From the NCBI RefSeq assembly GCF_003852425.1, contig NZ_QAJN01000018.1, forward strand, positions 47,376 to 111,375: 64,000 bases of DNA. The letters run 5' to 3'. This document shows positions 8,139 through 20,669 of this stretch, piece by piece; within the stretch, counting starts at the first letter, position 1, and each line of letters begins with the position of its first letter. The notes under the pieces are model-generated. The model was not told where the DNA came from, ran no database searches, and worked only from the letters and a program-made list of their open reading frames with translations. This stretch comes from Paucibacter sp. KBW04. GTDB taxonomy: Bacteria; Pseudomonadota; Gammaproteobacteria; Burkholderiales; Burkholderiaceae_C. A program made the position numbers and the translations under genes.

Positions 8139-8585
8139 TCAAGCTGTCACCTGCAGGCGTTTTTTGATCCAACGCAGCAGGCCGCCCAGCACCGGCAGCT
8201 TTTCGTAGAGCTCTTCGGCGGCGTCCCAGTAGTCGCGGTGATAGTCCACCCGGCCGTCCGGCGCAAAGCGCAGATGGCTGCTGCCATGGATGCATTGCGG
8301 GCTGTTTTTGCCCTTGAGTCGAAAGTGAACGTCCCAGCTCAGAAAGCCTTGATCGCCCTGGGCAAAGGCCTCGCGGACCTCGAACCGGGGTGCTTCCAGG
8401 GCCTCAAACATATGCGCGAAGATCGCCCGGATGGCGAGCAAGCCCCTCACCTCGTTGAAGGGGTCCTTGAAAAAAGCCTGCTCGGTGTAGAGCTGGCCCA
8501 GCCGGGCCAGGTCGCTGGGCTGCAAAGATTCGTAGAACTGGCGCAGTGCCAGCAGGCGCGGGTCGTCCGCAGCGGTGGGATTCAT
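8139..8585 (-). CDS. NTF2-like (SnoaL) family protein
   Basis: A 148-residue soluble protein with the cone-shaped NTF2/SnoaL fold pattern: an N-terminal helix pair (LLALRQFYESLQPSDLARLGQLY), then YTEQAFFKDPFNEVRGLLAI and strands ending in GRVDYHRDYWDAAEELY. No catalytic residues can be assigned with confidence. Proteins of this type recur in light-inducible LitR/ChrR clusters beside SDR, DUF3833 and cfa-like genes. The start overlaps the SDR gene stop by 4 nt. The function is unknown. Confidence 0.8.
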   Translation of the reverse strand: MNPTAADDPRLLALRQFYESLQPSDLARLGQLYTEQAFFKDPFNEVRGLLAIRAIFAHMFEALEAPRFEVREAFAQGDQGFLSWDVHFRLKGKNSPQCIHGSSHLRFAPDGRVDYHRDYWDAAEELYEKLPVLGGLLRWIKKRLQVTA

Positions 8586-9367
8586 AGGCCTGTGAAGCGT
8601 CGGATCAGGGGGAAGTACAGGCCGTCACTCAGATGGCGCAAGGCCTTGAGTACACGGGTGAAGCGTTTGGGGAAATGGATCTCGAACTGCCCCTGTGCCC
8701 AGCCCTCCAGCGTGGCCTGGGCGGCTTGCTCGGGGCTGATCAGGGCGGGCATCTTGAAATCATTCTGCGCCGTCATCGGCGTGGCCACAAAGCCGGGGTG
8801 GATGACCGAGACGCCCAGGCCCAGGCCCGAGAGCTCCAGATACAAGGCCTCGGCCAGATGCGTCAGCGCCGCCTTGCACGGCCCATAGGCCAGCGAACGC
8901 GGCAGACCCCGGTAGCCCGCCACGCTGGAGATCAGGCTCAGATGCCCGCCCTGACCCTGGGCGGCCTGCTTGCGCAGCTGCGGTAGCAGGGCGGCCAAGA
9001 GCTTGAGAGCGCCGCCGTAATTGATGTCCAGATGGCGTTGCGCCTCAAGCAGGGAAAAGTCTTGCCCCGTCATGGGCTTGAAGTAACCGGCACAGTAGAC
9101 GCATAAATCGATCTGGCCCTGGCGCTGGCCTATGGCCTCGCAAGCCTGGGCCAGCGCCTGCTCGTCCAGTACGTCCAAAGCGATGGCCTGCGCGCCGGGG
9201 TGGGCGTCGGTGAAGGCTTGCAGCAGTTCCTGCTGACGGGCACTGACGATCACCTTTGCGCCGGCTTGATGCAGTGCCACGGCCAGGGCCCGGCCGATGC
9301 CGCTGGAGGCGCCGATCAGCCAGACGGTCTTGCCCCGCCAGTCGCGCAGCTTGGGATTGAGGCTCAT
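8582..9367 (-). CDS. short-chain dehydrogenase/reductase
   Basis: A classical SDR of 261 residues. The NAD(P)-binding GASSGIGR motif is near residue 19, a Cys-Ala-Gly variant of the NNAG strand follows (YCAGYF), and the catalytic Ser (LISSVAGYRG) and YGPCK (Tyr-x3-Lys) are present. It probably acts on a lipid or other hydrophobic alcohol or ketone, judging only from the neighbouring fatty-acid-modification genes. It overlaps both neighbours by 4 nt, so it is firmly inside the photo-oxidative-stress operon. The substrate is not known. Confidence 0.88.
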   Translation of the reverse strand: MSLNPKLRDWRGKTVWLIGASSGIGRALAVALHQAGAKVIVSARQQELLQAFTDAHPGAQAIALDVLDEQALAQACEAIGQRQGQIDLCVYCAGYFKPMTGQDFSLLEAQRHLDINYGGALKLLAALLPQLRKQAAQGQGGHLSLISSVAGYRGLPRSLAYGPCKAALTHLAEALYLELSGLGLGVSVIHPGFVATPMTAQNDFKMPALISPEQAAQATLEGWAQGQFEIHFPKRFTRVLKALRHLSDGLYFPLIRRFTGL

Positions 9368-9915
9368 AGCTTTTGGAAGGACAGGGTGACCTCGCCCAGG
9401 TTGAAGCCGAACTTGCTCATGCGCGCCTTGTTGAGCAGGGTGCGCTCGTCGACCAGATACATCCAGTCATCGAAGTCCACCTCGTAGACCTTGCCGTCCA
9501 CCGGCAGCTTGAGGGTGTAGCTCCAGCGCAAGGCATTGCCGGCCGCCTGGCCTTGGGCCTCGCCCAACACATCGGCGGCCGTGCCGCTGTAGCGGCCCGC
9601 GCCTAGATGCTGCAGGGTCCAGACGCGGCGCTCTTTTTTGCCGTCGCTGTACTCAAAGTCTTCCTCCAGCACGCCGCGCTCACCCTCCCAGCGGCCCAGC
9701 AGGTGCACGATGAAGCGGCGCTGCACCCGGCCGGCGCGGTCGGTGAAGATGCCGTGGGCCAGCAGGCGTCCATCGAAGTATTTGCGCAGGTCCAGCCTTG
9801 GCGTTTCGCTGGCGTAGTCGGCCGGGGTGGGGGCGCTGGCGCAGCCGCCCAAGAGCAGGGCGCCGCCGGCCAGCAGCAGGCTGCGGCGCGGAAGAGAAGT
9901 CGTGTGGGATGGCAT
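9364..9915 (-). CDS. DUF3833 family lipoprotein
   Basis: A 183-residue lipoprotein beginning MPSHTTSLPRRSLLLAGG and ending its signal at the lipobox LLGGC. The rest matches the DUF3833 pattern: PRLDLRKYFDGRLLAHGIFTD, EEDFEYSDGK, and WSYTLKLPVDGKVYEVDFDDWMY. The ATG at 9915 was chosen because the signal peptide begins there; the long upstream frame is a shadow of the MFS gene. It is between the MFS transporter (2-nt gap) and the SDR (4-nt overlap). The fold suggests a lipid-binding or envelope role, but no activity is known to me. Confidence 0.85.
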   Translation of the reverse strand: MPSHTTSLPRRSLLLAGGALLLGGCASAPTPADYASETPRLDLRKYFDGRLLAHGIFTDRAGRVQRRFIVHLLGRWEGERGVLEEDFEYSDGKKERRVWTLQHLGAGRYSGTAADVLGEAQGQAAGNALRWSYTLKLPVDGKVYEVDFDDWMYLVDERTLLNKARMSKFGFNLGEVTLSFQKL

Positions 9916-9917
9916 GT

Positions 9918-11192
9918 TTAGAGCTCCTGCCCCGCGGGGCGACGGATGAAAAAGGTGTAGAGCAGGCCGGCGGCCCCCAGCTTCAAGAGGCAGGGCAGCA
10001 GGCAATAAACCAGGCCCAGGGCTTGCAAGCCCTGGGGCTCGCGGCGGCCCGGCGTGTAGCCCAGCAGCTCCAGCAAGGGCAGGGCCAGGCCGGCGGCCAG
10101 GGCCAGATTGAGCTTGGAGGCCGCGTTCCACCAACCGAAGAAGGAGCCCTCGGCCCGACCGCTCAAGCCCGCACGCTGGATCACCCGGGTCAGCATGGCG
10201 CTGGGGATGGCCAGATCGGCGCCCAGGGCGATGCCGGTGGCGATGCAGACGGCCACAAAGCCCGCCCGCTCACCCGCGCCCAAGCTGGCCGCGCCCACAA
10301 AACCCAGCACGGCCAACAGCATGCCCAGGGCCCAGCTGCGCGCCTGGCCCCAGCGTGCCACGGCTCGCAGCCACAGCGGCAGGGACAGAGCAGCGGCAAT
10401 GAAGTAAGCCGCTAGATACAAGCCCTCGTCCTGCGGGGTTTGCAGGCGGTCGCGCACAAAAAAGAGCAAGAGCGTGGCGGGCACCGCTGCCGCCACCCCG
10501 TTGAGCAAGAAGACCGACAACAAGCGCCGAAAGCCCGGCGTGCGCCAGGCCAGCCCAGCCTCGGTCGGCGCGCTGAGCGCATGAAGTTGGGCGGCGGCCC
10601 GGGGTGCGCGGCTGAGCAAAAGCAGGCCCAGAGCCAAGGCCAAGCCGAGCGCGATGGCCGTGGCGCTCAGGCCCAGCCAAGCGGGCAGCAGGCTGGCGCT
10701 GATCACGCCCAGCAGGGTCAGGCCTTCGCGCCAGGCCACCAGCCGGGTTTGCTGCAAGGCGTCTCCGCCAAGCCGCGCGCCCCAGGCCTGGTGCATGACG
10801 GCGAGCAAGCTGTAGGCGAAGTAGCACAGCAGCAAAAAGACGCCGCACCAGGTCAGCAAGCCGACGGGCGTCAGGGCAGCGGGGTGAAAGAGTGCGGAGA
10901 AGCTCAGGCCCAGCACCAGGGCGCCCGCAGCCATCAGCGGCAGCACCGCTGCGGGGCTGTGACACAGCAGGCGGTCGCAGAGCCGGCCTATCCAGGGGTC
11001 AACCAGGGCGTCGCTGAGCCGGGCCGCCAGCAGCAAGCCGCCCAACCAGGCCAGGGGTAGGCCGAAGTTCTGCGCGTAAAAGGCCGGCAGCGTGACGTAG
11101 AGCGGCAGGGCCACAAAGGCCAGTGCAAAGCCCAGGCTGCCGTAGTTCAAACCTGCGAGCGGGTTCGCCTTGCCAAACTCACGGCTTGGCAT
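9918..11192 (-). CDS. MFS transporter (GPH/MelB-like)
   Basis: A 424-residue inner-membrane transporter with about twelve hydrophobic helices. The N-terminus (GLNYGSLGFALAFVALPLYVTLPAFYAQ) and the DALVDPWIGRLCDR loop are typical of the glycoside-pentoside-hexuronide (MelB) branch. The ATG at 11192 overlaps the end of the chalcone-isomerase-like gene by 14 nt. Transporters of this kind occur in the same light-response clusters in other proteobacteria. Its cargo is unknown; a lipid, lysolipid or fatty-acid derivative would fit the neighbours but is inference. Confidence 0.85.
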   Translation of the reverse strand: MPSREFGKANPLAGLNYGSLGFALAFVALPLYVTLPAFYAQNFGLPLAWLGGLLLAARLSDALVDPWIGRLCDRLLCHSPAAVLPLMAAGALVLGLSFSALFHPAALTPVGLLTWCGVFLLLCYFAYSLLAVMHQAWGARLGGDALQQTRLVAWREGLTLLGVISASLLPAWLGLSATAIALGLALALGLLLLSRAPRAAAQLHALSAPTEAGLAWRTPGFRRLLSVFLLNGVAAAVPATLLLFFVRDRLQTPQDEGLYLAAYFIAAALSLPLWLRAVARWGQARSWALGMLLAVLGFVGAASLGAGERAGFVAVCIATGIALGADLAIPSAMLTRVIQRAGLSGRAEGSFFGWWNAASKLNLALAAGLALPLLELLGYTPGRREPQGLQALGLVYCLLPCLLKLGAAGLLYTFFIRRPAGQEL

Positions 11193-11715
11193 CGCCGCCA
11201 CCTGCTTCCAGCAGCCGGCGCCGCAAGTCCGGCTCCGAGGTCTGCGGCGCCAGCCAGATGCCGACGAAGAGCCGTGCGAACTCGGGGTCGGCGATGCGGC
11301 GGCACAGCTTGTCGTTGACAAAGAACTGCATGCCTTGGCCGGGCAGAAATTGCCCGCTCAGGCGCTGGCCGGCCGTGACGTCGGGGAAGGCCGCCTCCAT
11401 CTCGGCCAACCATTGCTTGGCTTTGGCTTCCGGGATCTCGGCTTGACGGCGCATCTCCACCAGGGACCGCTTGGCGATCTCGCGGCCGGAGAGGCTGCGT
11501 GCGTACAGCAGCTCCAGGCGCAGCGGCAAGTTCGCCCAGTTTTGTGTATTGACGGCCTGGCGGCTCCAGAGCCGGATGTCGTAGATCAGCAGTCCGAAAA
11601 AGCGCATCTGCGCCTGGGCCTGCAGCTTCTCGGGCGACTCCTCTTCGGCGCGCAGCGGGCTCAAGCCCAGCCCCAGGCCCAGCAGCAGGAAGAGACGACG
11701 TTGGGCCAGCGGCAT
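11179..11715 (-). CDS. chalcone-isomerase-like exported protein
   Basis: A 178-residue protein with an N-terminal signal peptide (RRLFLLLGLGLGLSPLRAEE) and the bacterial chalcone-isomerase-like fold pattern: MRFFGLLIYDIRLWS, LELLYARSLSGREIAKRS, MQFFVNDKLCRRIADPEFARLFVGIWL. True plant-type chalcone isomerase activity is unlikely. These proteins are thought to bind fatty-acid-like ligands in the periplasm (family knowledge, not shown here). It is 7 nt downstream of the cyclopropane-synthase-like gene, supporting a lipid-related role. Confidence 0.83.
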   Translation of the reverse strand: MPLAQRRLFLLLGLGLGLSPLRAEEESPEKLQAQAQMRFFGLLIYDIRLWSRQAVNTQNWANLPLRLELLYARSLSGREIAKRSLVEMRRQAEIPEAKAKQWLAEMEAAFPDVTAGQRLSGQFLPGQGMQFFVNDKLCRRIADPEFARLFVGIWLAPQTSEPDLRRRLLEAGGGDAKP

Positions 11716-11722
11716 GGCTTGC

Positions 11723-12946
11723 TCAGTCTTTCTGCAGGGTGAACTGCATTACATCGGTGCTGCCGGCCGCAAAAGCCGCTTCGCAGTAAGCCAGGTAGAA
11801 CTCCCAGAGGCGCAAGAAGCGGGTGTCAAAGCCCTGCTCGCGCACCTGCTGCTCCTGTTTCAGAAAGGCCTCGCGCCAGAGCTGCAGGGTCTGCGCATAG
11901 TCCATGCCGAAGGCCAGCTCGTTCACCACCTTCAATCCCGCCCGTTTGGCGTGGGCGCGGAACTGGCTGGGGCTGGGCAGCATGCCGCCGGGGAAGATGT
12001 ATTGCTGGATGAAGTCGCTGGAGCGGGAGTAACGGTCGAATAAATCGTCGCGTATGGTGATGGTCTGGATGCAGGCACGGCCGCCGGGCTTGAGCTTGGC
12101 GTGTACGGTCTTGAAATAACCGTCCCAGTACTCGCGGCCCACGGCCTCGAACATTTCGATGGAGACGATGGCATCGAAGGCTGGGTCTTGGATATCGCGA
12201 TAGTCCTGCAAGCGCAGATCGGCCTGCGCGGCCAGGCCGGCCTTTTGCAGACGCTCTTGCGCCCAAACCAGCTGCTCGCTGGACAGGGTCACGCCGGTCA
12301 GGTGCGCGCCAAAGTCGCGGGTGGCCGTTTCGGCCACGGCACCCCAGCCGCAGCCGATCTCCAACACGCGAGAGTCTTTGCTAATGCCGCATTCGCGCAG
12401 GGCGCGCTCCATCTTGGCGGCCTGTGCCTGCGGCAGCGTGCGGCCAGGTTGGCCCTCGAACAAGGCGCTGGAGTAGTTCATGCTCGGGTCTAACCAGAGC
12501 TTGTAGAAATCGTTGCCGATGTCGTAATGCGCGTGGATGTTTTTGCGGCTGCCCTTGCGGCTGTTGCGGCGCAAGAGATGGCGGGCGCGGTGCAGCAGCG
12601 CGCCCCACCAGCTGCCGAAGATGACCTCGTCCAAGGCCTCGCGATTGCGCACGAACAGTTCGAGCAGGGCGCGCAGATCGGGCGAACTCCAATGCCCGGC
12701 CACATAGCTTTCGGCAAAGCCGATATCGCCGGAGCGCAGGGCCGCGGCACAGACCGCCCAGTCACGGATGCGCAGGGCGGCGCGTGGGCCCTCGGCCGTG
12801 GCACCGAAATGCGCCGTGGCGCCGTCGGGCAGCTGCACATCCAGGCTGCCGTGCCGCAGCTGGCTCAGCAGGCGGAAGACGCTGCGGGCGGCGGCCGGTG
12901 CGTCGTCGGGCAGATTGAGGCGGGTCTTGAGCGTGGTGGAGTTCAT
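11723..12946 (-). CDS. cyclopropane-fatty-acyl-phospholipid synthase family methyltransferase
   Basis: A SAM-dependent enzyme of 407 residues that would methylate or cyclopropanate the double bond of membrane phospholipid acyl chains. The N-terminal CFA domain leads to the acyl-chain-site motif AHYDIGNDFYKLWLDPSMNY (about residue 140), then the SAM-binding loop VLEIGCGWGAVAE (about residue 200), SIEMFEAVG, and the late EFYLAYCEAAF. The ATG at 12946 overlaps the DUF1365 stop as ATGA. The trio FAD oxidoreductase, DUF1365 and CFA-like enzyme is the conserved core of light- and singlet-oxygen-induced loci. Related Rhodobacter proteins have been tied to methylated or furan fatty acids, so it need not make cyclopropanes. 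Confidence 0.9.
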   Translation of the reverse strand: MNSTTLKTRLNLPDDAPAAARSVFRLLSQLRHGSLDVQLPDGATAHFGATAEGPRAALRIRDWAVCAAALRSGDIGFAESYVAGHWSSPDLRALLELFVRNREALDEVIFGSWWGALLHRARHLLRRNSRKGSRKNIHAHYDIGNDFYKLWLDPSMNYSSALFEGQPGRTLPQAQAAKMERALRECGISKDSRVLEIGCGWGAVAETATRDFGAHLTGVTLSSEQLVWAQERLQKAGLAAQADLRLQDYRDIQDPAFDAIVSIEMFEAVGREYWDGYFKTVHAKLKPGGRACIQTITIRDDLFDRYSRSSDFIQQYIFPGGMLPSPSQFRAHAKRAGLKVVNELAFGMDYAQTLQLWREAFLKQEQQVREQGFDTRFLRLWEFYLAYCEAAFAAGSTDVMQFTLQKD

Positions 12947-13773
12947 GGCGTGCGCGAGACGAAGGGATGAGGGTCGGAAGTTTGGAGTGGCGCCTTGCCG
13001 AAAAAGGGCACGCGCTTGAGCAGCAGGCGCAGGGCTTGCCAGTGGATGCGGGCCATCACCATCAGGCTCAGGGCCGGCATGGCGAAGAAGGCGGCGCGGG
13101 CGCTGTGGCTGCTGAGCGGAGCCAGCTCGCCGCTGACGCTGGTCTGTAGCAAGACCTGACCCTCGGCGTCCACATGGGTGATGCGTGCGACCGTGCGCTG
13201 TTTGCCCTCTTGGCCGCTGTGCATGAAGTTGAAGCGGTAGCTGCCGCTGACCTGGCAAAAAGGCGAGACGTGAAAGCATTTGCTGGCGAGCTGTTCGCGC
13301 CCGTAGGCCACGTGCTCGCCGCGCAAGACATAGCAATGCCGCTGGCCAAAGGTGTTGTTGACCTCGACCACGATGGCGGCCAGGCTGCCATCGGCGCGCT
13401 CGCAATACCAAAAGCTCACCGGCTTGAAGGCATAGCCCAGCACCCGGGGCAGGCAGTGCAGCCAGACCTCGCCACCGCGGTCGGCGTCGCTATCGCTGAT
13501 GCCTTCGCGCGCCAGCAAATCGTCCAGCCAGGCCAGGGCATCGGGCCCGCCCGCGCCGTGGTCGGCGTCGTGAAAAGCCAGCCAGCCGCGACTGTTGCGG
13601 TTCAGCGCCGCGCAGGGCTGCTTGCGCAAGGCCCGCATGGGCAGCATCAGAAAGTAACTCTGGTAGGCGAAGGCGTGCTCGCGCGGGCGCAGGCGGCGGT
13701 GGCGCACCTGGCCTCGGCCGATCAGGGCTTGGCGCGGCCAGGCCTGGCTGCCTAGCTTGGCGGGCCTGCTCAT
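12943..13773 (-). CDS. DUF1365 family protein
   Basis: A 276-residue DUF1365 protein. Recognisable family segments are VRHRRLRPREHAFAYQSYFLMLP near the start, LPRVLGYAFKPVSFWYC (about residue 110), VVEVNNTFGQRHCYVL, and KCFHVSPFCQVSGSYRF. It overlaps the FAD oxidoreductase upstream and the CFA-like gene downstream by 4 nt each. The family is nearly always found with these two partners. Its biochemical activity is not established to my knowledge; a role in acyl-chain modification is inferred from the company it keeps. Confidence 0.9.
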   Translation of the reverse strand: MSRPAKLGSQAWPRQALIGRGQVRHRRLRPREHAFAYQSYFLMLPMRALRKQPCAALNRNSRGWLAFHDADHGAGGPDALAWLDDLLAREGISDSDADRGGEVWLHCLPRVLGYAFKPVSFWYCERADGSLAAIVVEVNNTFGQRHCYVLRGEHVAYGREQLASKCFHVSPFCQVSGSYRFNFMHSGQEGKQRTVARITHVDAEGQVLLQTSVSGELAPLSSHSARAAFFAMPALSLMVMARIHWQALRLLLKRVPFFGKAPLQTSDPHPFVSRTP

Positions 13774-15227
13774 GCGCGCTCCTGCGCCGCCCAGCTCTCA
13801 AGCAAGCGCTTGGCCACGCCCAGGCCGGAGAGCAGGCCGTCTTCGTGAAAGCCGTAGCGCGTCCAGGCACCGCAATACCAGAGCCCGCCCTGGCCTTGCA
13901 GCTCGGCGATGCGGCTTTGCGCGGCCACGGCGGCGCGGTCGAAGACGGGGTGGGCGTAGTCGTACTCACCCAGCACCGTTTGGCTGCGGGGTTCGCGCAC
14001 CGGGTTGAGCGAGACGATCACCGGCTGCTGCCAGGGCAGGGGCTGCAGCCGGTTGAGCAGATAGTGCAGGCAGACGGCCTGCTTCTCCTGGCCTTTGACC
14101 GCGCCCCCATGCTCGTAGTTCCAGGCCGCCCAGGCCAGCGGGCGCTGGGGCAGGAGTTGGCTGTCGGTATGCAGCACGGCCCGGTTGCGGTGATAGGCGA
14201 TGGCGCCCAGCACCTGGCGCTCGGCCGGGCTTGGCTGGTCGAGCAGGCGCAGGCTTTGATCGCTGTGGCAGGCCAGGATGACGGCGTCGAACTCTTCGCT
14301 GCCCTGGGCGGTTTGCACGCGCGCGCCGCCGCCGGCCAAACGGCTCACGCTCAGCACCGGGCTGTGCAGGCGGGCGTCTTTCAGCTGCGCCAGCATCTTC
14401 TGAACATAGTGCTTGGCACCGCCCTGCACTGTGAACCATTGTGGCCGGTCGGCGACCTGCAAGAGGCCGTGGTTATGGCAGAAGCGGATCAGGGTGCTGA
14501 TGGGGAAGCTCAGCATCTGCGAGGTCGGGCAGGACCAGATGCAGGCGACCATGGGCAGCAAATACCAGTCCCGGAAGGCTTCGCCAAAGCGGTTCTCCTT
14601 CAAGAACTCGCCAATCGGCTGGGCCAGGGCCGATTCCATGCCTTGCTCGGCCAGGCGGGTGCAGAGCTTGTTGAAGCGCAGCAGGTCGGCGAGCATGCCC
14701 CAGAAGGCGGGGCGCAAGAGATTGCTGCGCTGGGCAAACACGCTGTTCAGATTGCTGCCGCTCCACTCCAGGCCTTGCTGAGGCAGCTGGACAGAAAAGG
14801 ACATATCGCTGGCGGCCACGGCCACATCCAGACGCTCAAACAGCTCGATCAGCAGCGGGTAGGTGCGTTCGTTGAAGACCAGAAAGCCGGTGTCCACACC
14901 GTGGGACTGCCCAGCCAGTTCCACGTCCACCGTGTGGGTGTGGCCGCCGAAATAGTCGCCCGCCTCGAACAGCGTGACCTGGGCTTGCTCACGCAGTGCC
15001 CAGGCCGCGGACAGGCCCGAGATGCCCGAGCCGATGACGGCCACGCGGCGCTGGGGCTGGGAGGGCTTGCGATTGGAGGAGCCGGGAGCGCCCGCGCACT
15101 GGCGCAGAAAAGGCAGCAGATCGGTGGCGTGAGAGCCCGGCGCTGGCGCGCTGCCGGCCTGTCTTTGGATGGCCGGGCTGGGCTGCAAAGACAAGGGGCC
15201 TCCGCGCTTGGCGGAAGCCCCGGGCAT
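13770..15227 (-). CDS. FAD-dependent amine-oxidase-type oxidoreductase of the light-response operon
   Basis: A flavoprotein with the Rossmann FAD motif VAVIGSGISGLSAAWALRE, the flanking EAGDYFGGHTHTVD, and C-terminal ENYEH-like and WYCGAWTRYGFHEDGLLSG segments that close the FAD site. It is a candidate acyl-chain desaturase or saturase, acting with DUF1365 and the CFA-like methyltransferase. The start is uncertain. The frame is open up to 15572, but residues before the Rossmann loop are low-complexity and carry a hairpin at 15195-15221. I use ATG 15227 (485 residues); a GTG nearer the Rossmann motif would give about 420 residues, closer to relatives. It is the first gene of the nine-gene run. 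Confidence 0.88.
   Translation of the reverse strand: MPGASAKRGGPLSLQPSPAIQRQAGSAPAPGSHATDLLPFLRQCAGAPGSSNRKPSQPQRRVAVIGSGISGLSAAWALREQAQVTLFEAGDYFGGHTHTVDVELAGQSHGVDTGFLVFNERTYPLLIELFERLDVAVAASDMSFSVQLPQQGLEWSGSNLNSVFAQRSNLLRPAFWGMLADLLRFNKLCTRLAEQGMESALAQPIGEFLKENRFGEAFRDWYLLPMVACIWSCPTSQMLSFPISTLIRFCHNHGLLQVADRPQWFTVQGGAKHYVQKMLAQLKDARLHSPVLSVSRLAGGGARVQTAQGSEEFDAVILACHSDQSLRLLDQPSPAERQVLGAIAYHRNRAVLHTDSQLLPQRPLAWAAWNYEHGGAVKGQEKQAVCLHYLLNRLQPLPWQQPVIVSLNPVREPRSQTVLGEYDYAHPVFDRAAVAAQSRIAELQGQGGLWYCGAWTRYGFHEDGLLSGLGVAKRLLESWAAQERA
15195..15221 (-). terminator. hairpin at the 5' end of the FAD oxidoreductase gene
   Basis: GGGGC-C-TCCGC pairs with GCGGA-A-GCCCC around a five-base loop; read on the minus strand it is followed by the T-rich TTGTCTTTGC. 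It lies just after the ATG at 15227. It could be the terminator of gpx or an attenuator in the leader of the oxidoreductase, in which case the true start is downstream. Confidence 0.4.
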
Positions 15228-15581
15228 AAAAGTAGTCGCAAGATGCCTCGAAGCCAACGAGGGAGGGAGGGAGGAGGAGGAAAACGGCTTGGAGATTGCA
15301 CCCCCATTGCTGGGGAGACCTTGCGACTGGAACTGGTTTGATGCTAACGGAATCTCTTCCTTTGAGAAACATTTTTGGTGATTTTGCAAACCTTTACAAG
15401 TGCCTGCACGATGACGCAGGAATCCGTCGTTATTTTGTTCACAGACAGCGACAGGGGTCAGACATATGTCAGGTTGCGGAATTGCGGGTGCCGGCGCTGG
15501 CGCCCCCGTTTTCGGGGCTTGGGACCGGGTGTCGGGCGTTTGGGCCCATGGCATGGGGATGTTGAGGTTCATGGGCTGCGC
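15228..15581. other. gene-free gap between gpx and the FAD oxidoreductase gene
   Basis: About 350 bp that most likely holds the promoter of the minus-strand operon. The oxidoreductase frame happens to be open through it, but the translation is low-complexity. It is more AT-rich than its surroundings. Visible elements are a perfect palindrome GACATATGTC (15461-15470), an inverted repeat CCTGC/GCAGG (about 15402-15419), and no copy of the TTTGTC-type box found upstream of litR. I cannot assign -35 and -10 with confidence. Confidence 0.5.
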
Positions 15582-16226
15582 TCAGGGTTGGGCCAGCAGG
15601 CGTTCCAGCGCCTGGATGAAGTCGGGGCTGAGCGGATCGACCTTGGATGCAATGCTTTGCACGGCCTGGCCGTCACGCGAAATCAGGTATTTGTGAAAAT
15701 TCCATTGCGGCGTTTGGCCGGTTTTTTTACCCAGATCCGCGAACAGCGGATTGCTGTCCGGTCGACCCGGTAGCACGGCCGACTTGGCAAACATCGGGAA
15801 CTTGACGTTGAAGGTGTTCTGGCAGAACTCGGCGATCTCCTTGTTGCTGCCTGGCTCCTGGCTGCCAAAGTCATTCGAGGGGAAGCCCAGCACGACCAGA
15901 CCGGCCTTGGCATAGCGGGCCTGCAATTGCTCCAGCGCCTGGTACTGGGAGGTGTAGCCGCAGAAGCTGGCGGTGTTGACGACCAGCAGCACCCGGCCGG
16001 CGTACTGGCATAGGGCCTGGGGCTGCTCGTCTTGCAGGCGGGGCAACACGCGCTGCAGCAAGGCCGGGCATTGCGGGGTGGCCGCTTTGTCGGAGTTTTT
16101 GTCGACCTTGGCGGGGGCGGTGCTTGTCGAGGCATTGGCGGCAGCGACAACCAGACCCTGGCTCAAGCCCAGCAGCAAGGCGAGGACAATGGGCATTTGC
16201 CGAATCTTGATCAATCGAATGTCCAT
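15582..16226 (-). CDS. gpx: exported glutathione-peroxidase family protein
   Basis: A 214-residue thiol peroxidase of the GPx family with an N-terminal signal peptide (MPIVLALLLGLSQGLVVAAA), placing it in the periplasm or membrane. The peroxidatic Cys is in NTASFCGYTSQ (C89 from the first ATG). The conserved GFPSNDFGSQEPGSN (Gln) and WNFHKYLIS (Trp) complete the site. It would reduce lipid or organic hydroperoxides. The first ATG (16226) or the one at 16196 could be used. It shares a short intergenic region with divergent litR, whose symmetrical boxes lie almost on its start codon, so it is probably light or oxidant regulated. Confidence 0.9.
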   Translation of the reverse strand: MDIRLIKIRQMPIVLALLLGLSQGLVVAAANASTSTAPAKVDKNSDKAATPQCPALLQRVLPRLQDEQPQALCQYAGRVLLVVNTASFCGYTSQYQALEQLQARYAKAGLVVLGFPSNDFGSQEPGSNKEIAEFCQNTFNVKFPMFAKSAVLPGRPDSNPLFADLGKKTGQTPQWNFHKYLISRDGQAVQSIASKVDPLSPDFIQALERLLAQP

Positions 16227-16228
16227 TG

Positions 16229-16243
16229 TTTGTCTAGGTCAAA
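16229..16243. promoter_or_regulatory. candidate LitR operator next to the gpx start
   Basis: TTTGTCTAGGTCAAA is a near-palindrome that differs at two of 15 positions from the perfect box at 16292-16306. A third weaker half, TTTGTTTGGCAA, follows at 16249-16260. It overlaps the translation start region of gpx on the minus strand. Assignment to LitR rests on location and symmetry only. Confidence 0.45.
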
Positions 16244-16291
16244 ATGAATTTGTTTGGCAATATTAGGGCTTCTTTTGATTTCTGTCATATA

Positions 16292-16306
16292 TTTGTCTAC
16301 GACAAA
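16292..16306. promoter_or_regulatory. candidate LitR operator upstream of litR
   Basis: TTTGTC-TAC-GACAAA is a perfect inverted repeat with a three-base centre, 33 bp before the litR ATG. Its centre is 63 bp (six helical turns) from that of the box at 16229-16243, so both could be held by one tetrameric CarH-type regulator. The AT-rich CATATATTTG just upstream may be the -10 region of litR. Confidence 0.5.
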
Positions 16307-16338
16307 CAGTGGTCTTTGTCTTTGTTCCGAGCGCGCCG

Positions 16339-17307
16339 ATGGCTGATGAATTTGTTCCCGCTGAAGATTTGATGGGCTTGCCCGGCATTGCGTCGGTGGA
16401 GCGGGATACCGGTATTGGCAAGGACACCTTGCGGGTCTGGGAGCGCCGCTATGGTTTCCCCTGCCCCTTGCGCGACGCCCAGGGCGAACGGGCTTATCCA
16501 CTGGAACAGGTGCAGCGACTGCGTCTGCTCAAACGCCTGCTGGACCGGGGCCATAGACCTGGCCGCGTTGTGCCGGCCGGTCTGGAGGAGTTGGAGTCTC
16601 TGCTCAAGCAGCCGATGGCCAAGTCGGCCGCACCCTCGCCGCTCATGCCGGGGGCGGATCTGGAGGCCTTTGTCGACCTGCTGCGCGCGCACCGCATCGA
16701 TGCACTCAAGCACCTGCTCTCCCAGACGCTGCTGCGCTTAGGCCTGGGCGATTTCGTCATGAGCGTGGTGGCGCCGCTGACCACCCGAGTGGGCGATCTG
16801 TGGATGCAGGGCGAGTTGCAGGTGTTTGAGGAGCATGTCTACACCGAGGCCTTGCAGCAGGTGATGCGGCAGGCGGTGCAGGCCATCCCGCCGCAGGCCT
16901 TGCAGGCGCAGCCCCGGGTCTTGCTGACGACGCTGCCCGGTGAGCCGCATGGCCTGGGTTTGCTGATGGTGGAGGCCTTGCTGGCACTGGAGGGCTGCCC
17001 CTGTGTGTCCCTGGGCGTGCAGACGCCGCAGCAAGAGCTGCCGCAAGCGGCCAGAGCCCATGGGGCAGACATCGTGGCGCTGAGCTTTACCGGCCTGCTC
17101 TCCACCGGCGTGGTGCAAAAAGCCATGCGTGCCCTGCGCGCCGAACTGCCGCCTGGCATGGTCTTGTGGGCCGGCGGCAGCTCTCCCGTGCTGCGGCGCG
17201 GCTCAGGGATGGAGGGGGTGCTCTACATCACCGAGCTGGCCGATCTGGCGCCTCAGTTGCGGCAGTGGCGAAAACAGCATCTTGCCGACGCGCAGGCGGC
17301 GCCTTGA
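16339..17307 (+). CDS. litR: LitR/CarH-type MerR regulator with adenosylcobalamin photoreceptor domain
   Basis: A 322-residue light-sensing repressor. Residues 12-75 form a MerR winged helix (GIGKDTLRVWERRYGFP). Residues about 108-180 form the four-helix cap with the diagnostic W155-x9-E165-H166 motif. Residues about 190-315 form the B12-binding Rossmann domain with E202-P-H204-G-L-G207, that is ExHxxG with the cobalt-ligating His. In CarH/LitR, dark B12-bound tetramers hold the operator and light breaks them. All residues needed for that cycle are present. The ATG at 16339 is preferred over an upstream GTG that overlaps the operator. It is divergent from gpx and faces away from the lipid-modification operon it probably controls. 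Confidence 0.92.
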   Translation: MADEFVPAEDLMGLPGIASVERDTGIGKDTLRVWERRYGFPCPLRDAQGERAYPLEQVQRLRLLKRLLDRGHRPGRVVPAGLEELESLLKQPMAKSAAPSPLMPGADLEAFVDLLRAHRIDALKHLLSQTLLRLGLGDFVMSVVAPLTTRVGDLWMQGELQVFEEHVYTEALQQVMRQAVQAIPPQALQAQPRVLLTTLPGEPHGLGLLMVEALLALEGCPCVSLGVQTPQQELPQAARAHGADIVALSFTGLLSTGVVQKAMRALRAELPPGMVLWAGGSSPVLRRGSGMEGVLYITELADLAPQLRQWRKQHLADAQAAP

Positions 17308-18341: not shown

Positions 18342-19244
18342 TCAGTGGCTGCGGCTGCGCTTGAGCACCAGCAGGCCGAAGCACAGGGCGGCAATGATCA
18401 AGCCGCCGATGAAGTGGGGCGAGGCCAGGTTCTGTATCGCCAACCAGGCATCTTGTGCGGCCAGACCGCTGGCATTGAGCGGCAGGCTGGGGTCTTCGGC
18501 CAGCTGGCCCAGGTGGCGGCCCAGGGCTTGATGATCGGCCAGCATGGCCAAGCTGGCGCCTTCAAACTGCCGCTCCAGCAGCTGTTCGACGATGGGCCAG
18601 TTGTAAAGCTTGTCCAGCGCCAAGCCGCCAAAGCCCAACACCAGGGCGACGGCCGGCACGCCCCAACGCTTCAGCCAGGCCGAGGCCGCCACCACCAGCA
18701 GGATCAGGGGCGCCAGCCACAACGTCATCAACAGCACGCCCAGAATGGCGCGCAGCACGATGGGCACGACCGCCACCAGGGCCGTGCCCCAGGACACCGT
18801 GGTCCAGGCTGCAAAACCAGCCTGCTTGATGAAGAGCCCGCTGGCCATCAGGGGGCCGGCAATCGCGCCAACCAGCAGCGCCGCCAGGGGCACCAGCACG
18901 GCGTGGGCCAAGAGGGTGGCGCCGATGCTCTCCGTGTGGCTGGCCGGCAGGGAGAGCCAGAACTCGATCGAACGATCCTGCACATCGCGCCGGGCCAGGC
19001 CCGGCATCTGGAACATGGCGCTGATCCAGGCGATACCAAACACGCCCGCCGCCGTGGCCAGCATGATGCCCACGGCCATTTGCAAGGGAAAGCGATCAAT
19101 CGGCATGCCACTGACCTGGCCAAAGGGCAGCAGGACAAAGAACAGGCCCAGGGGCAAAAACAGCGTGATCAGCCAGCCGCGCTTGTGCTGCATCCATTCG
19201 CGCAGCAAGAGGGTTGAAAAACGAGAGGATGAATTAGTGCTCAT
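18342..19244 (-). CDS. ABC-2-type transporter permease
   Basis: A 300-residue membrane protein with about six helices in ABC-2 style, starting with a cytoplasmic amphipathic segment (LLREWMQHKRGWLITLFLPLG). The motif RRDVQDRSIEFWLSLPASHTESIG resembles the coupling region of permeases in YtrA-type operons. It follows the ATPase gene by 34 bp. It probably exports or senses an envelope-active compound, but no substrate can be read from the sequence. Confidence 0.8.
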   Translation of the reverse strand: MSTNSSSRFSTLLLREWMQHKRGWLITLFLPLGLFFVLLPFGQVSGMPIDRFPLQMAVGIMLATAAGVFGIAWISAMFQMPGLARRDVQDRSIEFWLSLPASHTESIGATLLAHAVLVPLAALLVGAIAGPLMASGLFIKQAGFAAWTTVSWGTALVAVVPIVLRAILGVLLMTLWLAPLILLVVAASAWLKRWGVPAVALVLGFGGLALDKLYNWPIVEQLLERQFEGASLAMLADHQALGRHLGQLAEDPSLPLNASGLAAQDAWLAIQNLASPHFIGGLIIAALCFGLLVLKRSRSH

Positions 19245-19278
19245 GAGGCGTTCTCCGGAGGGTTCTCAGACGCGAACG

Positions 19279-20187
19279 TCAGACGTTTTTGGCTTGCAGC
19301 GCCGGATTGCGGGTCAGGGCCATGAACAGATCGACCAGGCTGGGTCGGATGCGTTCGCCCAGGGCGGCGATATCGGCCGGCGGTGCGCCGTCGAAGATGG
19401 CGGCGCTGCGGCCCCCCTGCTGGCGGTAGCGCAAAAGCGGATGCGCGCTGGCGATGGCCTCGGCCGTGGCCGGGTCGTGGCTGAGGGCGATGAAACGCTT
19501 GTCCATATCCTCCAGGCTGATATTGAGCACCAGCTTGCCCTCATCCAACATCATCACGTCGGACAGCAAGGTCTCGACCTCTTCCACCTGGTGGGTGGAG
19601 ATCAGCACGGTGCGCTCGCCATCGCACCATTCGTCAATCAGCATCTCGTAGAAATTCTTGCGCGAGAGCACGTCCAGGCCCAGCGTGGGCTCGTCCAGAA
19701 TCATCAGCTTGGCGTCAATGGCCGCGATCAGCGCTAAGTGGACTTGGGTCACCATGCCCTTGGACAAATTCTTGATCTTGTCCTTCTCGCCCACGCTGGT
19801 GCGCTTGAGCAGGGTGCGCGCCCGTTCGGCCGAGAAGCGCGGCTGCAAGCCGCTCATCAGCGTCATCAGTTCGTCCACCCGGGCCCAGCGCGGCAGCACG
19901 GCCACATCGGGGATGTAGCAAAGCTGCTCCAGCAAGGCGCCGCGCTGCTGGCGGGGCGAGAGGCCCAGCACCTGCAACTGGCCCTCGGCCGGCAGCAAAC
20001 CCACCAGGGCTTTCATCAGCGAGGTCTTGCCGGCGCCGTTATGGCCTAACAAGCCAATCACCCGGCCCTTGGGAATGGTGAAGCTGGCCCGCTCCAGGGC
20101 AGTCTTGCTGCCATAGCGCAGGGTCAGGTCTTGCGCGCTGACCAAAAAATCTTGCATGCTCTTGTTGTCGTTGGTGGTGGTGCTCAT
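19279..20187 (-). CDS. ABC transporter ATP-binding protein
   Basis: An ATPase of 302 residues for the permease downstream. Walker A is GHNGAGKTSL (about residue 50). The ABC signature region is degenerate (NLSKGMVTQVHLAL, with LSKGM in place of LSGGQ, as is common in this subfamily). Walker B is LMILDEPTLGLD, and the switch His is in ISTHQ. The ATG at 20187 overlaps the GntR stop as ATGA, so regulator, ATPase and permease form one operon. Confidence 0.92.
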   Translation of the reverse strand: MSTTTNDNKSMQDFLVSAQDLTLRYGSKTALERASFTIPKGRVIGLLGHNGAGKTSLMKALVGLLPAEGQLQVLGLSPRQQRGALLEQLCYIPDVAVLPRWARVDELMTLMSGLQPRFSAERARTLLKRTSVGEKDKIKNLSKGMVTQVHLALIAAIDAKLMILDEPTLGLDVLSRKNFYEMLIDEWCDGERTVLISTHQVEEVETLLSDVMMLDEGKLVLNISLEDMDKRFIALSHDPATAEAIASAHPLLRYRQQGGRSAAIFDGAPPADIAALGERIRPSLVDLFMALTRNPALQAKNV

Positions 20188-20537
20188 TGAGGGCTCTCCC
20201 AGTTCAGATCCTTGGCGCTCAGACCCAGGCGTTTCAGTTTGGCTCGCAGGGCGGGCCATTCTTGTTCCAGAAAACGATGGCGTTCGGCCGACAGCAGCTG
20301 CTGCCTGGCCCCGGCCATCACATACATGCCCATGCCGCGGCGGCTTTCGATCAGCTGCTGATCGACCAAGGCCTGCAAGGCCCGGCTGACGGTCAGGGGG
20401 TTGATCACATACTGGCTGGCCAGTGCGCGAACGGAGGGGAGGGCTTGACCCTCCGGGGGCGAGCCATCCAGCAGTTGCACGGCCAAGCGATCGGCCAACT
20501 GCTGGTAGATGGGCGCTGAGTCATTCCAGGTTTGCAT
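20184..20537 (-). CDS. GntR family (YtrA-like) transcriptional regulator
   Basis: A 117-residue regulator of the short YtrA type: an N-terminal GntR winged helix (APIYQQLADRLAVQLLDGSPPEGQALPSVRALASQYVINPLTVSRALQALVDQQLIESRRGMGMYV) and a short helical tail (FLEQEWPALRAKLKRLGL) for dimerisation. It is first in an operon with an ABC ATPase and permease, the classical YtrA arrangement, and probably represses its own operon through the inverted repeat at 20558-20581. The start at 20537 puts MQTWNDSAPIYQQL at the usual N-terminus. Confidence 0.9.
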   Translation of the reverse strand: MQTWNDSAPIYQQLADRLAVQLLDGSPPEGQALPSVRALASQYVINPLTVSRALQALVDQQLIESRRGMGMYVMAGARQQLLSAERHRFLEQEWPALRAKLKRLGLSAKDLNWESPQ

Positions 20538-20557
20538 ATCGAATGGGCTGGGCAGCC

Positions 20558-20581
20558 GGTGTGTTACTGATGTAGCACACC
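20558..20581. promoter_or_regulatory. inverted-repeat operator for the GntR regulator
   Basis: GGTGTGTTAC and GTAGCACACC flank a four-base centre TGAT; the two ten-base arms match at nine of ten positions as an inverted repeat. The 24-bp site lies 20 bp upstream of the regulator start, the expected place for autoregulation in YtrA-like systems. Confidence 0.75.
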
Positions 20582-20669
20582 ATAGCAAGCGAGCCGGACC
20601 GGCACCAAGGCTGGCGCGACAGTCTGCAGAAACGAGGGGGTGAACGGTCATTCGAAGGACCGCTGCAGC

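Follow-up and report, generated by a model that had tools for sequence, protein, structure and literature searches.

Locus and gene content

The window analysed here is a 64-kb stretch of contig C10 of the 5.6 Mb genome of Paucibacter sp. KBW04. It carries a gene for a LitR/CarH-type photoreceptor regulator (litR), a glutathione peroxidase gene (gpx) and an operon resembling those for furan fatty acids. Two further elements were found that had been missed by the original prediction, which was made from this DNA alone: a structured RNA between gpx and the gene of a flavin adenine dinucleotide (FAD) enzyme, and a pair of palindromes in the litR/gpx gap. The embedded RNA and the paired palindromes, taken as LitR operator candidates, are what is new at the locus; the cluster of protein-coding genes is of a known kind.

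Domains were assigned with Pfam. All genes named in the original prediction were recovered at their places by Pfam and by open reading frames (Table 1). The 5' limit of the FAD gene (about 15120) is the start of its conserved part and not an assigned start codon, and the starts of the DUF3833, MFS and CFA-like genes were chosen by the analyst inside longer open frames. Across 9 aligned DUF3833 sequences, the G-C of the lipobox position does not vary. A search of the whole genome found a single DUF1365 gene, a single full-length LitR, accompanied by a partial match of 27.9 bits, and a single photolyase.

Table 1. Positions of the genes, RNA and candidate regulatory sites in the window
Feature	Position	Strand	Basis
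SnoaL_2/NTF2-like protein	8139-8585	-	Pfam
Short-chain dehydrogenase (SDR)	8582-9367	-	Pfam
DUF3833 protein, apparent lipoprotein	9364-9915	-	Pfam
MFS_2/GPH-type transporter	9918-11192	-	Pfam and further family match
Chalcone_3 (chalcone-isomerase-like) protein, apparent signal peptide by eye	11179-11715	-	Pfam, alignment
Cyclopropane fatty acid synthase (CFA)-like S-adenosylmethionine (SAM) methyltransferase (CMAS), UfaM candidate, altered bicarbonate site	11723-12946	-	Pfam, PDB alignments, column counts
DUF1365 protein, UfaO candidate	12943-13773	-	Pfam DUF1365, 2.6e-72
FAD amine-oxidase-type enzyme, UfaD candidate	13770-15120	-	Pfam Amino_oxidase/NAD_binding_8, alignment
Intrinsic terminator directly 3' of RNA core	15195-15221	-	
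Structured RNA core: stem P1 closing the fold, hairpins P2 and P3, the latter bearing the CU-rich loop UUUUCCUCCUCCUCCCUCCCUCCCUCGUU	15224-15335	-	
Dyad CTTGTAAAGGTTTGCAAA, upstream of RNA	15383-15400	-	Aligned upstream regions
gpx, glutathione peroxidase, apparent signal peptide by eye	15582-16226	-	Pfam GSHPx
LitR operator candidate 2, TTTGTCTAGGTCAAA, gpx side	16229-16243		Conservation
Sigma-70-like promoter ATGACA-N17-TAATAT facing gpx, between both operator candidates	16260-16288	-	Consensus scan, 9/12 positions
LitR operator candidate 1, TTTGTCTACGACAAA, litR side	16292-16306		Conservation in LitR upstream regions
LitR/CarH-type regulator, MerR_1, B12-binding_2 and B12-binding	16339-17307	+	Pfam

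Operon of furan fatty acid type

The FAD, DUF1365 and CFA-like genes look like the UfaD-UfaO-UfaM triad. Their order is that of Rhodopseudomonas palustris RPA2571 (UfaD), RPA2570 (UfaO) and RPA2569 (UfaM), where UfaO is a DUF1365 protein and a SAM methylase-like gene likewise stands within the operon next to an oxidoreductase gene (PMC7380195). The resemblance was judged by protein family and gene order.

The R. sphaeroides operon RSP1087-1091 encodes an SDR (RSP_1087), a hypothetical protein, a GPH-family symporter (RSP_1089), UfaO and UfaD (PMC7074977, PMC7380195). Of the partners that had been regarded as additions in the window, the GPH transporter and the SDR are thus already found in the Rhodobacter operon; the Chalcone_3 and SnoaL proteins are extra with respect to RSP1087-1091 as listed (PMC7074977). 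The longer pathway proposed on the basis of these partners could not be upheld for the SDR and transporter genes, because single deletions of RSP1087, RSP1088 and RSP1089 left the furan fatty acid profile unchanged (PMC7380195). A further difference lies in regulation, with RpoE/ChrR in R. sphaeroides and a B12-type LitR beside the operon in the window. RSP1091 (UfaD) is taken by us to be an FAD amine-oxidase-type protein, and RSP1088 a DUF3833 protein.

A DUF1365 homologue was present in 40 of the 59 genomes searched, comprising the window's own genome and relatives. The operon was compared at 39 loci of relatives around DUF1365 (L039-L077), with contig ends counted as misses; distant SDRs in L075 and L076 and weak LitR-like matches in L075-L077 were left out of the counts. 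DUF1365 was flanked by FAD and CFA-like genes at 37 of these loci, and both exceptions (L051 without FAD, L050 without CFA) lie at contig ends. Neighbours of the triad were SDR (32 loci), DUF3833 (31) and Chalcone_3 (30), and a divergent LitR and a gpx occurred at 22 and 18 loci, respectively.

The CFA-like protein matches CMAS/CFA models and could be aligned with E. coli CFA synthase (6bqc) and other solved CFA synthases, as would be expected if the operon product were ordinary cyclopropane (or 10-methyl) fatty acids instead of furan fatty acids. The bicarbonate site of E. coli CFA synthase includes Cys, Glu, His and Tyr, with Cys139 and His266 among its residues. Among 60 operon CFA-like proteins, the His266 position was Gln in all 60 and the Cys139 position Ser in 56, and the Glu was retained in 60 and the Tyr in 59 (one gap). 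Five low-scoring proteins stand outside this set, namely four second CFA-like proteins (L074-L077), each of which keeps His where it was compared, plus a fragment derived from the broken L045 frame. Scores against CFA equivalog models were far under the cut-offs (273.6 versus 600 and 253.2 versus 400), and the gene for the UfaO domain, DUF1365, adjoins the CFA-like gene at these loci. Ordinary cyclopropane or 10-methyl products are therefore rather improbable, and the altered bicarbonate site fits a UfaM-type methyltransferase rather than a CFA synthase.

Judged from families, gene order and the functions attributed to the Ufa enzymes, UfaM (CFA-like) would methylate, UfaD (FAD) desaturate and UfaO (DUF1365) oxidise phospholipid acyl chains. 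The Chalcone_3 and DUF3833 proteins, both of which seem to bear signal sequences, would add an accessory arm of the operon in the cell envelope.

LitR and its candidate operators

LitR was aligned over nearly its full length with Thermus CarH (3whp, 5c8d; E about 1e-24), with conservation of Trp, Glu-His and His. These are the photoreceptor residues, including the lower-ligand His, named for CarH in PMC11796333. Both photoreceptor motifs of the original prediction (W-x9-EH and E-x-H-x-x-G) are present in the translation, align with the Thermus residues and were found in 69 of 80 LitR homologues of the loci compared. Together with a MerR helix-turn-helix (HTH) and both B12-binding domains, they give the protein class I (B12) features, and its predicted position beside gpx and a furan-fatty-acid-type operon was borne out. 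The score against the NCBIfam CarH model was 117.3, under the model cut-off of 400. A cobalamin adenosyltransferase (CobA/BtuR) is present in the genome. With PADLOC, the only hit of LitR was a weak one to mad1 (2.4e-4) across its HTH region.

The two palindromes in the litR/gpx gap are exactly 63 bp apart. Upstream regions of LitR genes were collected (80, of which 71 distinct), leaving out loci with too little upstream DNA; many of the 71 are from related species and are thus not independent. A TTTGTCnnnGACAAA site with at most 3 mismatches was found in 62 of these 71 regions, compared with 5.6% of base-shuffled regions. Two copies 62-64 bp apart occurred in 37 regions, exactly 63 bp apart in 31, and in 0 of 3550 shuffled ones. 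TTTGTCnnnGACAAA is therefore a probable LitR operator. In the dark, LitR with adenosylcobalamin would probably bind the two palindromes flanking the gpx promoter, and light would release it. Since 63 bp correspond to six turns of B-DNA, the two sites would lie on the same side of the helix, and a tetramer could span them. The operator assignment is drawn from conservation, and binding and light response from CarH/LitR.

Only 2 nt separate the gpx-side candidate from the listed gpx ATG (16226), too few to accommodate a ribosome binding site. Translation of gpx may instead begin at a later ATG, at about 16196, or proceed from a leaderless mRNA. A promoter for litR was not identified.

A genome scan with the window-derived LitR pattern gave no further exact match and two places with one mismatch, compared with one for a reversed control. 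The place on C8 was rejected as a further operator, as it lies inside a long open frame; the other, on C1, is near a frame boundary. None of the four LitR-pattern matches in the genome is on C32, the contig of the sole photolyase found (C32:53738-54214). The earlier claim that photolyase and ChrR are absent was thus correct for the locus, where no photolyase was found among the genes scanned, and for ChrR anti-sigma factor, which had no match anywhere in the genome at E<=0.001, but did not extend to the photolyase of the whole genome.

LitR-linked light control of such genes is already known. In P. mendocina a light-induced SDR/FAD/ufaM set adjoins a LitR homologue, and PmlR2, a member of the LitR family, binds the promoter of this set (PMC9758184). 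The Pseudomonas PplR/PmlR clusters resemble the window in that a repressor of the LitR family accompanies genes of the SDR, FAD oxidoreductase and ufaM types, which in Pseudomonas are induced by light. They differ in that Pseudomonas LitR is of class II, with one B12-type domain, no B12 and a LOV partner, and uses TGTACA-type sites (PMC9758184), whereas class I features and TTTGTCnnnGACAAA sites were found in the window and the photolyase lies outside the cluster. In V. cholerae, a CFA-like gene is induced by blue light (PMC5241685).

Structure of the RNA between gpx and the FAD gene

Aligned relatives have the DNA block between gpx and the FAD gene in common, without conservation of the protein it would encode. 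In many relatives the FAD frame runs open through this region, yet the conserved DNA falls into different frames in different relatives (L045 versus the others). The core varies in length among 40 model-located cores. When frames are counted from the beginning of the core, none stays open across the whole set of 120 cores (94 at most), 80 of which were pattern-located and have a fixed length by construction. A coding reading of the region was therefore rejected.

The window strand folded with a z-score of -3.48 against dinucleotide shuffles. RNAalifold on a 13-sequence MAFFT alignment gave 26 pairs, 17 of them with two-sided compensatory changes. The covariation set comprised 47 model-aligned sequences (45 distinct), whose alignment is fitted to the model and hence leans towards it; here, two-sided compensatory changes were found in 21 of the 26 pairs. 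Pairing was possible in 94.2% of 1161 cells, as compared with 39-47% when partners were slid, compensatory cells numbered 205 versus 58 in shuffles, and covariation was 0.541 versus 0.269 in shuffled data. The last P3 pair was unpaired in 24 of the 45 sequences. The fold consists of P1 (11 pairs), the short hairpin P2 and P3 (11 pairs), whose apical loop measures about 28 nt. This CU-rich, CCUCC-type loop is near-invariant and is shortened or slightly changed in some genera. A terminator was detected 3' of the core at 23 of 55 loci, compared with 1.4% of base-shuffled sequences.

The near-invariant purine/pyrimidine tract would also fit a conserved DNA element, the strand opposite the loop (GGGAGGGAGGGAGG) being a possible G-quadruplex. 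Compensatory changes on the stems and the terminators point to a transcript instead, and a DNA element is regarded as highly improbable.

At E<=1, no Rfam family matched the RNA, whether in the window or in the 17 relatives scanned; those relatives gave two sub-threshold matches, both of them elsewhere than at the RNA. No paper describing the RNA was found in the open-access literature, which is weak evidence of novelty as most subscription journals lie outside that search. The RNA apparently represents an undescribed family.

Distribution and genomic neighbourhood of the RNA

Large model searches used stricter filters, by which weak matches can be lost. Across the order, model R1 had matches in 8 of 300 genomes, every one from the window's family and one of them the window's own; within the family, it matched 243 of 349 genomes, in 106 of 141 genera. 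Among the matches listed, there was one per positive genome. The broader model R2 matched 17 of 399 genomes, 11 within the family and 6 with weak hits outside it (20-29 bits). In a phmmer search with 12 window proteins nothing related was found beside these six, which were taken as chance and rejected as evidence for the RNA in other families. A loop-based exact pattern gave 99 stretches among named genomes, 80 among the matches listed. Genera among the matches listed include Roseateles, Paucibacter, Pelomonas, Mitsuaria, Ideonella, Aquabacterium, Hydrogenophaga and Polaromonas, and Rubrivivax gelatinosus and R. benzoatilyticus are also among the loop-pattern matches listed.

Neighbourhoods were scored in a set of 40 RNA loci (mostly one per genus) and in a set of 80 pattern-found loci, which overlap in some genomes. 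The counts are lower bounds for the link, as L190, scored as having none of the genes, has gpx and FAD. At least one of gpx, LitR and FAD was near the RNA at 29 of 40 and 58 of 80 loci, and a divergent LitR at 16 of 38 and 38 of 65. Three Rubrivivax loci (L197, L238, L256) run from LitR through the RNA to the FAD operon, and no gpx was detected in between.

At 20 of 40 and 38 of 71 loci, the FAD homology starts no more than 700 nt downstream of the RNA, and in the window and relatives a terminator lies between RNA core and FAD gene. The RNA could accordingly be a cis-acting leader or attenuator of the furan fatty acid operon, which would sense a signal and set terminator read-through before the FAD gene. 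However, no FAD was scored downstream at 20 of the 40 RNA loci, 12 of which lead into arnT/corA-like genes (23 of 25 in the pattern-found set), homologues of genes that follow the operon in the window. Two genomes (G009 and G010) keep the RNA though the DUF1365 search gave no match, G015 has the RNA on another contig than the operon, and the loop is conserved whatever the neighbour. A role as leader only was set aside since the RNA persists without the operon, and a leader or attenuator function is considered unlikely.

The end of gpx within 400 nt upstream of the RNA (20 of 40 and 25 of 75 loci) would fit a 3'-untranslated region product cut from the gpx mRNA. The remaining loci (20 of 40 and 50 of 75) showed no gpx there, and at part of the loci promoter-like elements lie just upstream of the core: GGAAC[TC] was found upstream at 27 of 55 loci (shuffled mean 3.0, maximum 10), and the full GGAAC[TC]-N14-19-TCNNA in 17 of 55 upstream regions (shuffled mean 0.2). 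A GGAAC(T/C)-type -35 element with a spaced -10 element is the consensus of promoters for sigma-E-like extracytoplasmic function (ECF) factors. Processing from gpx mRNA is thus quite improbable. An ECF-dependent periplasmic glutathione peroxidase is known from Shewanella (PMC4336711).

Because it persists where the operon is absent, the RNA is probably a free-standing small RNA (sRNA) gene.

A gene starting MLYPELFKQLEAVRWNMDTDIPWD, or nearly so, is found just upstream of the RNA or gpx at L146, L149, L150, L153 and L158. In the window, positions 18342-20651 (minus strand) hold three genes which, read by eye, resemble a membrane protein, an ABC ATPase and a GntR-type regulator. A homologue of this membrane protein is also near the RNA at the operon-less loci L146 and L147 of relatives, which fits a single ancestral neighbourhood. 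Two relatives of the window genus (L046, L050) have operon, gpx and LitR and no RNA at this place; their gap from the gpx stop to the FAD motif is just 160-166 nt.

Comparison with known small RNAs

The CcsR1-4 sRNAs of Rhodobacter presumably carry the CU-rich anti-Shine-Dalgarno-like motif CCUCCUCCC; literature text searches for it found nothing. The window RNA would share with them such a motif and, by our assignment, a stress setting. CcsR-group stress sRNAs act in the photo-oxidative stress of Rhodobacter (PMC7074977, PMC10253847). Their four copies share a transcript with a DUF1127 gene, driven by an RpoH promoter (PMC10253847), whereas the window RNA is a single copy with no Rfam match; several tandem copies, as in CcsR, were seen in none of the positive genomes among the matches listed.

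CU-rich sRNAs covering ribosome binding sites have been predicted in Burkholderia (PMC5688073). These double-hairpin RNAs (RF02278) likewise have CU-rich unpaired stretches complementary to ribosome binding sites; they differ in forming two hairpins and in occurring in three to five copies per genome (PMC5688073), compared with a closed multibranch fold and a single copy in the window. An Rfam scan of the window and 17 relatives gave no RF02278 match to the RNA.

Interpretation

The locus is read here in three layers, a LitR repressor, a furan fatty acid operon and a trans-acting sRNA, and we consider it probable that this reading is correct as a whole. The RNA would be about 110-190 nt long by estimate, with a closed multibranch fold presenting the near-invariant single-stranded CCUCC-type loop. 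It most likely acts in trans, the loop pairing with Shine-Dalgarno regions of mRNAs, and would contribute to the response to envelope or oxidative stress. The fold of the RNA and its conservation are observed; its expression, targets and stress induction are inferred.

Several observations weigh against this reading. The candidate LitR operators sit at litR/gpx, and the operon starts behind the structured RNA and its terminator; in the window, the LitR pattern (at most one mismatch) had no match at the operon or the RNA promoter. No site within 3 mismatches was found in 9 of the 71 LitR regions and no pair in 34, although missing pairs are partly due to an assumed gene start that truncates the region (L043 and L044 do have pairs). 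None of gpx, LitR and FAD was scored near the RNA at 11 of 40 and 22 of 80 loci, which is an upper bound as some loci are incomplete; apart from the window, only 14 of the 39 operon loci of relatives have the RNA, and its link to the photo-oxidative genes may be only positional. In the terminator test, 32 of the 55 RNA loci gave none. GGAAC[TC] was found in 0 of 12 regions of the window genus (window and 11 relatives); by eye, the window and several relatives of its genus instead share a TTTGYAA-N4-TTGCAAA dyad and a TAGCAT-like -10 element. As to targets, the 14-nt complement was exact only at the RNA gene itself in all five genomes scanned, and five further sites with one mismatch occurred in three of the five; apart from these scattered sites, no long complementary targets were found. 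The pyrimidine loop may also serve as a decoy for Rho or another protein.

An extended form of this reading is put forward tentatively and with some doubt. The RNA would be a family-wide stress sRNA whose tandem anti-Shine-Dalgarno loop throttles the translation of many mRNAs under envelope, light or singlet-oxygen stress, and LitR, the periplasmic peroxidase and furan-lipid synthesis would have assembled around it.

The RNA, apparently a new family, was found in about 70% of the genomes sampled from a single beta-proteobacterial family, the phototroph Rubrivivax among them. Its covariation is strong enough for a ready structural model, and it would be a single-copy sRNA with an extreme anti-Shine-Dalgarno loop. 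The paired LitR operator candidates provide a testable picture in which a tetrameric B12 photoreceptor could hold the divergent promoter region. If the extended reading is true, one chromosomal site would join photoreception, membrane lipid protection and riboregulation.

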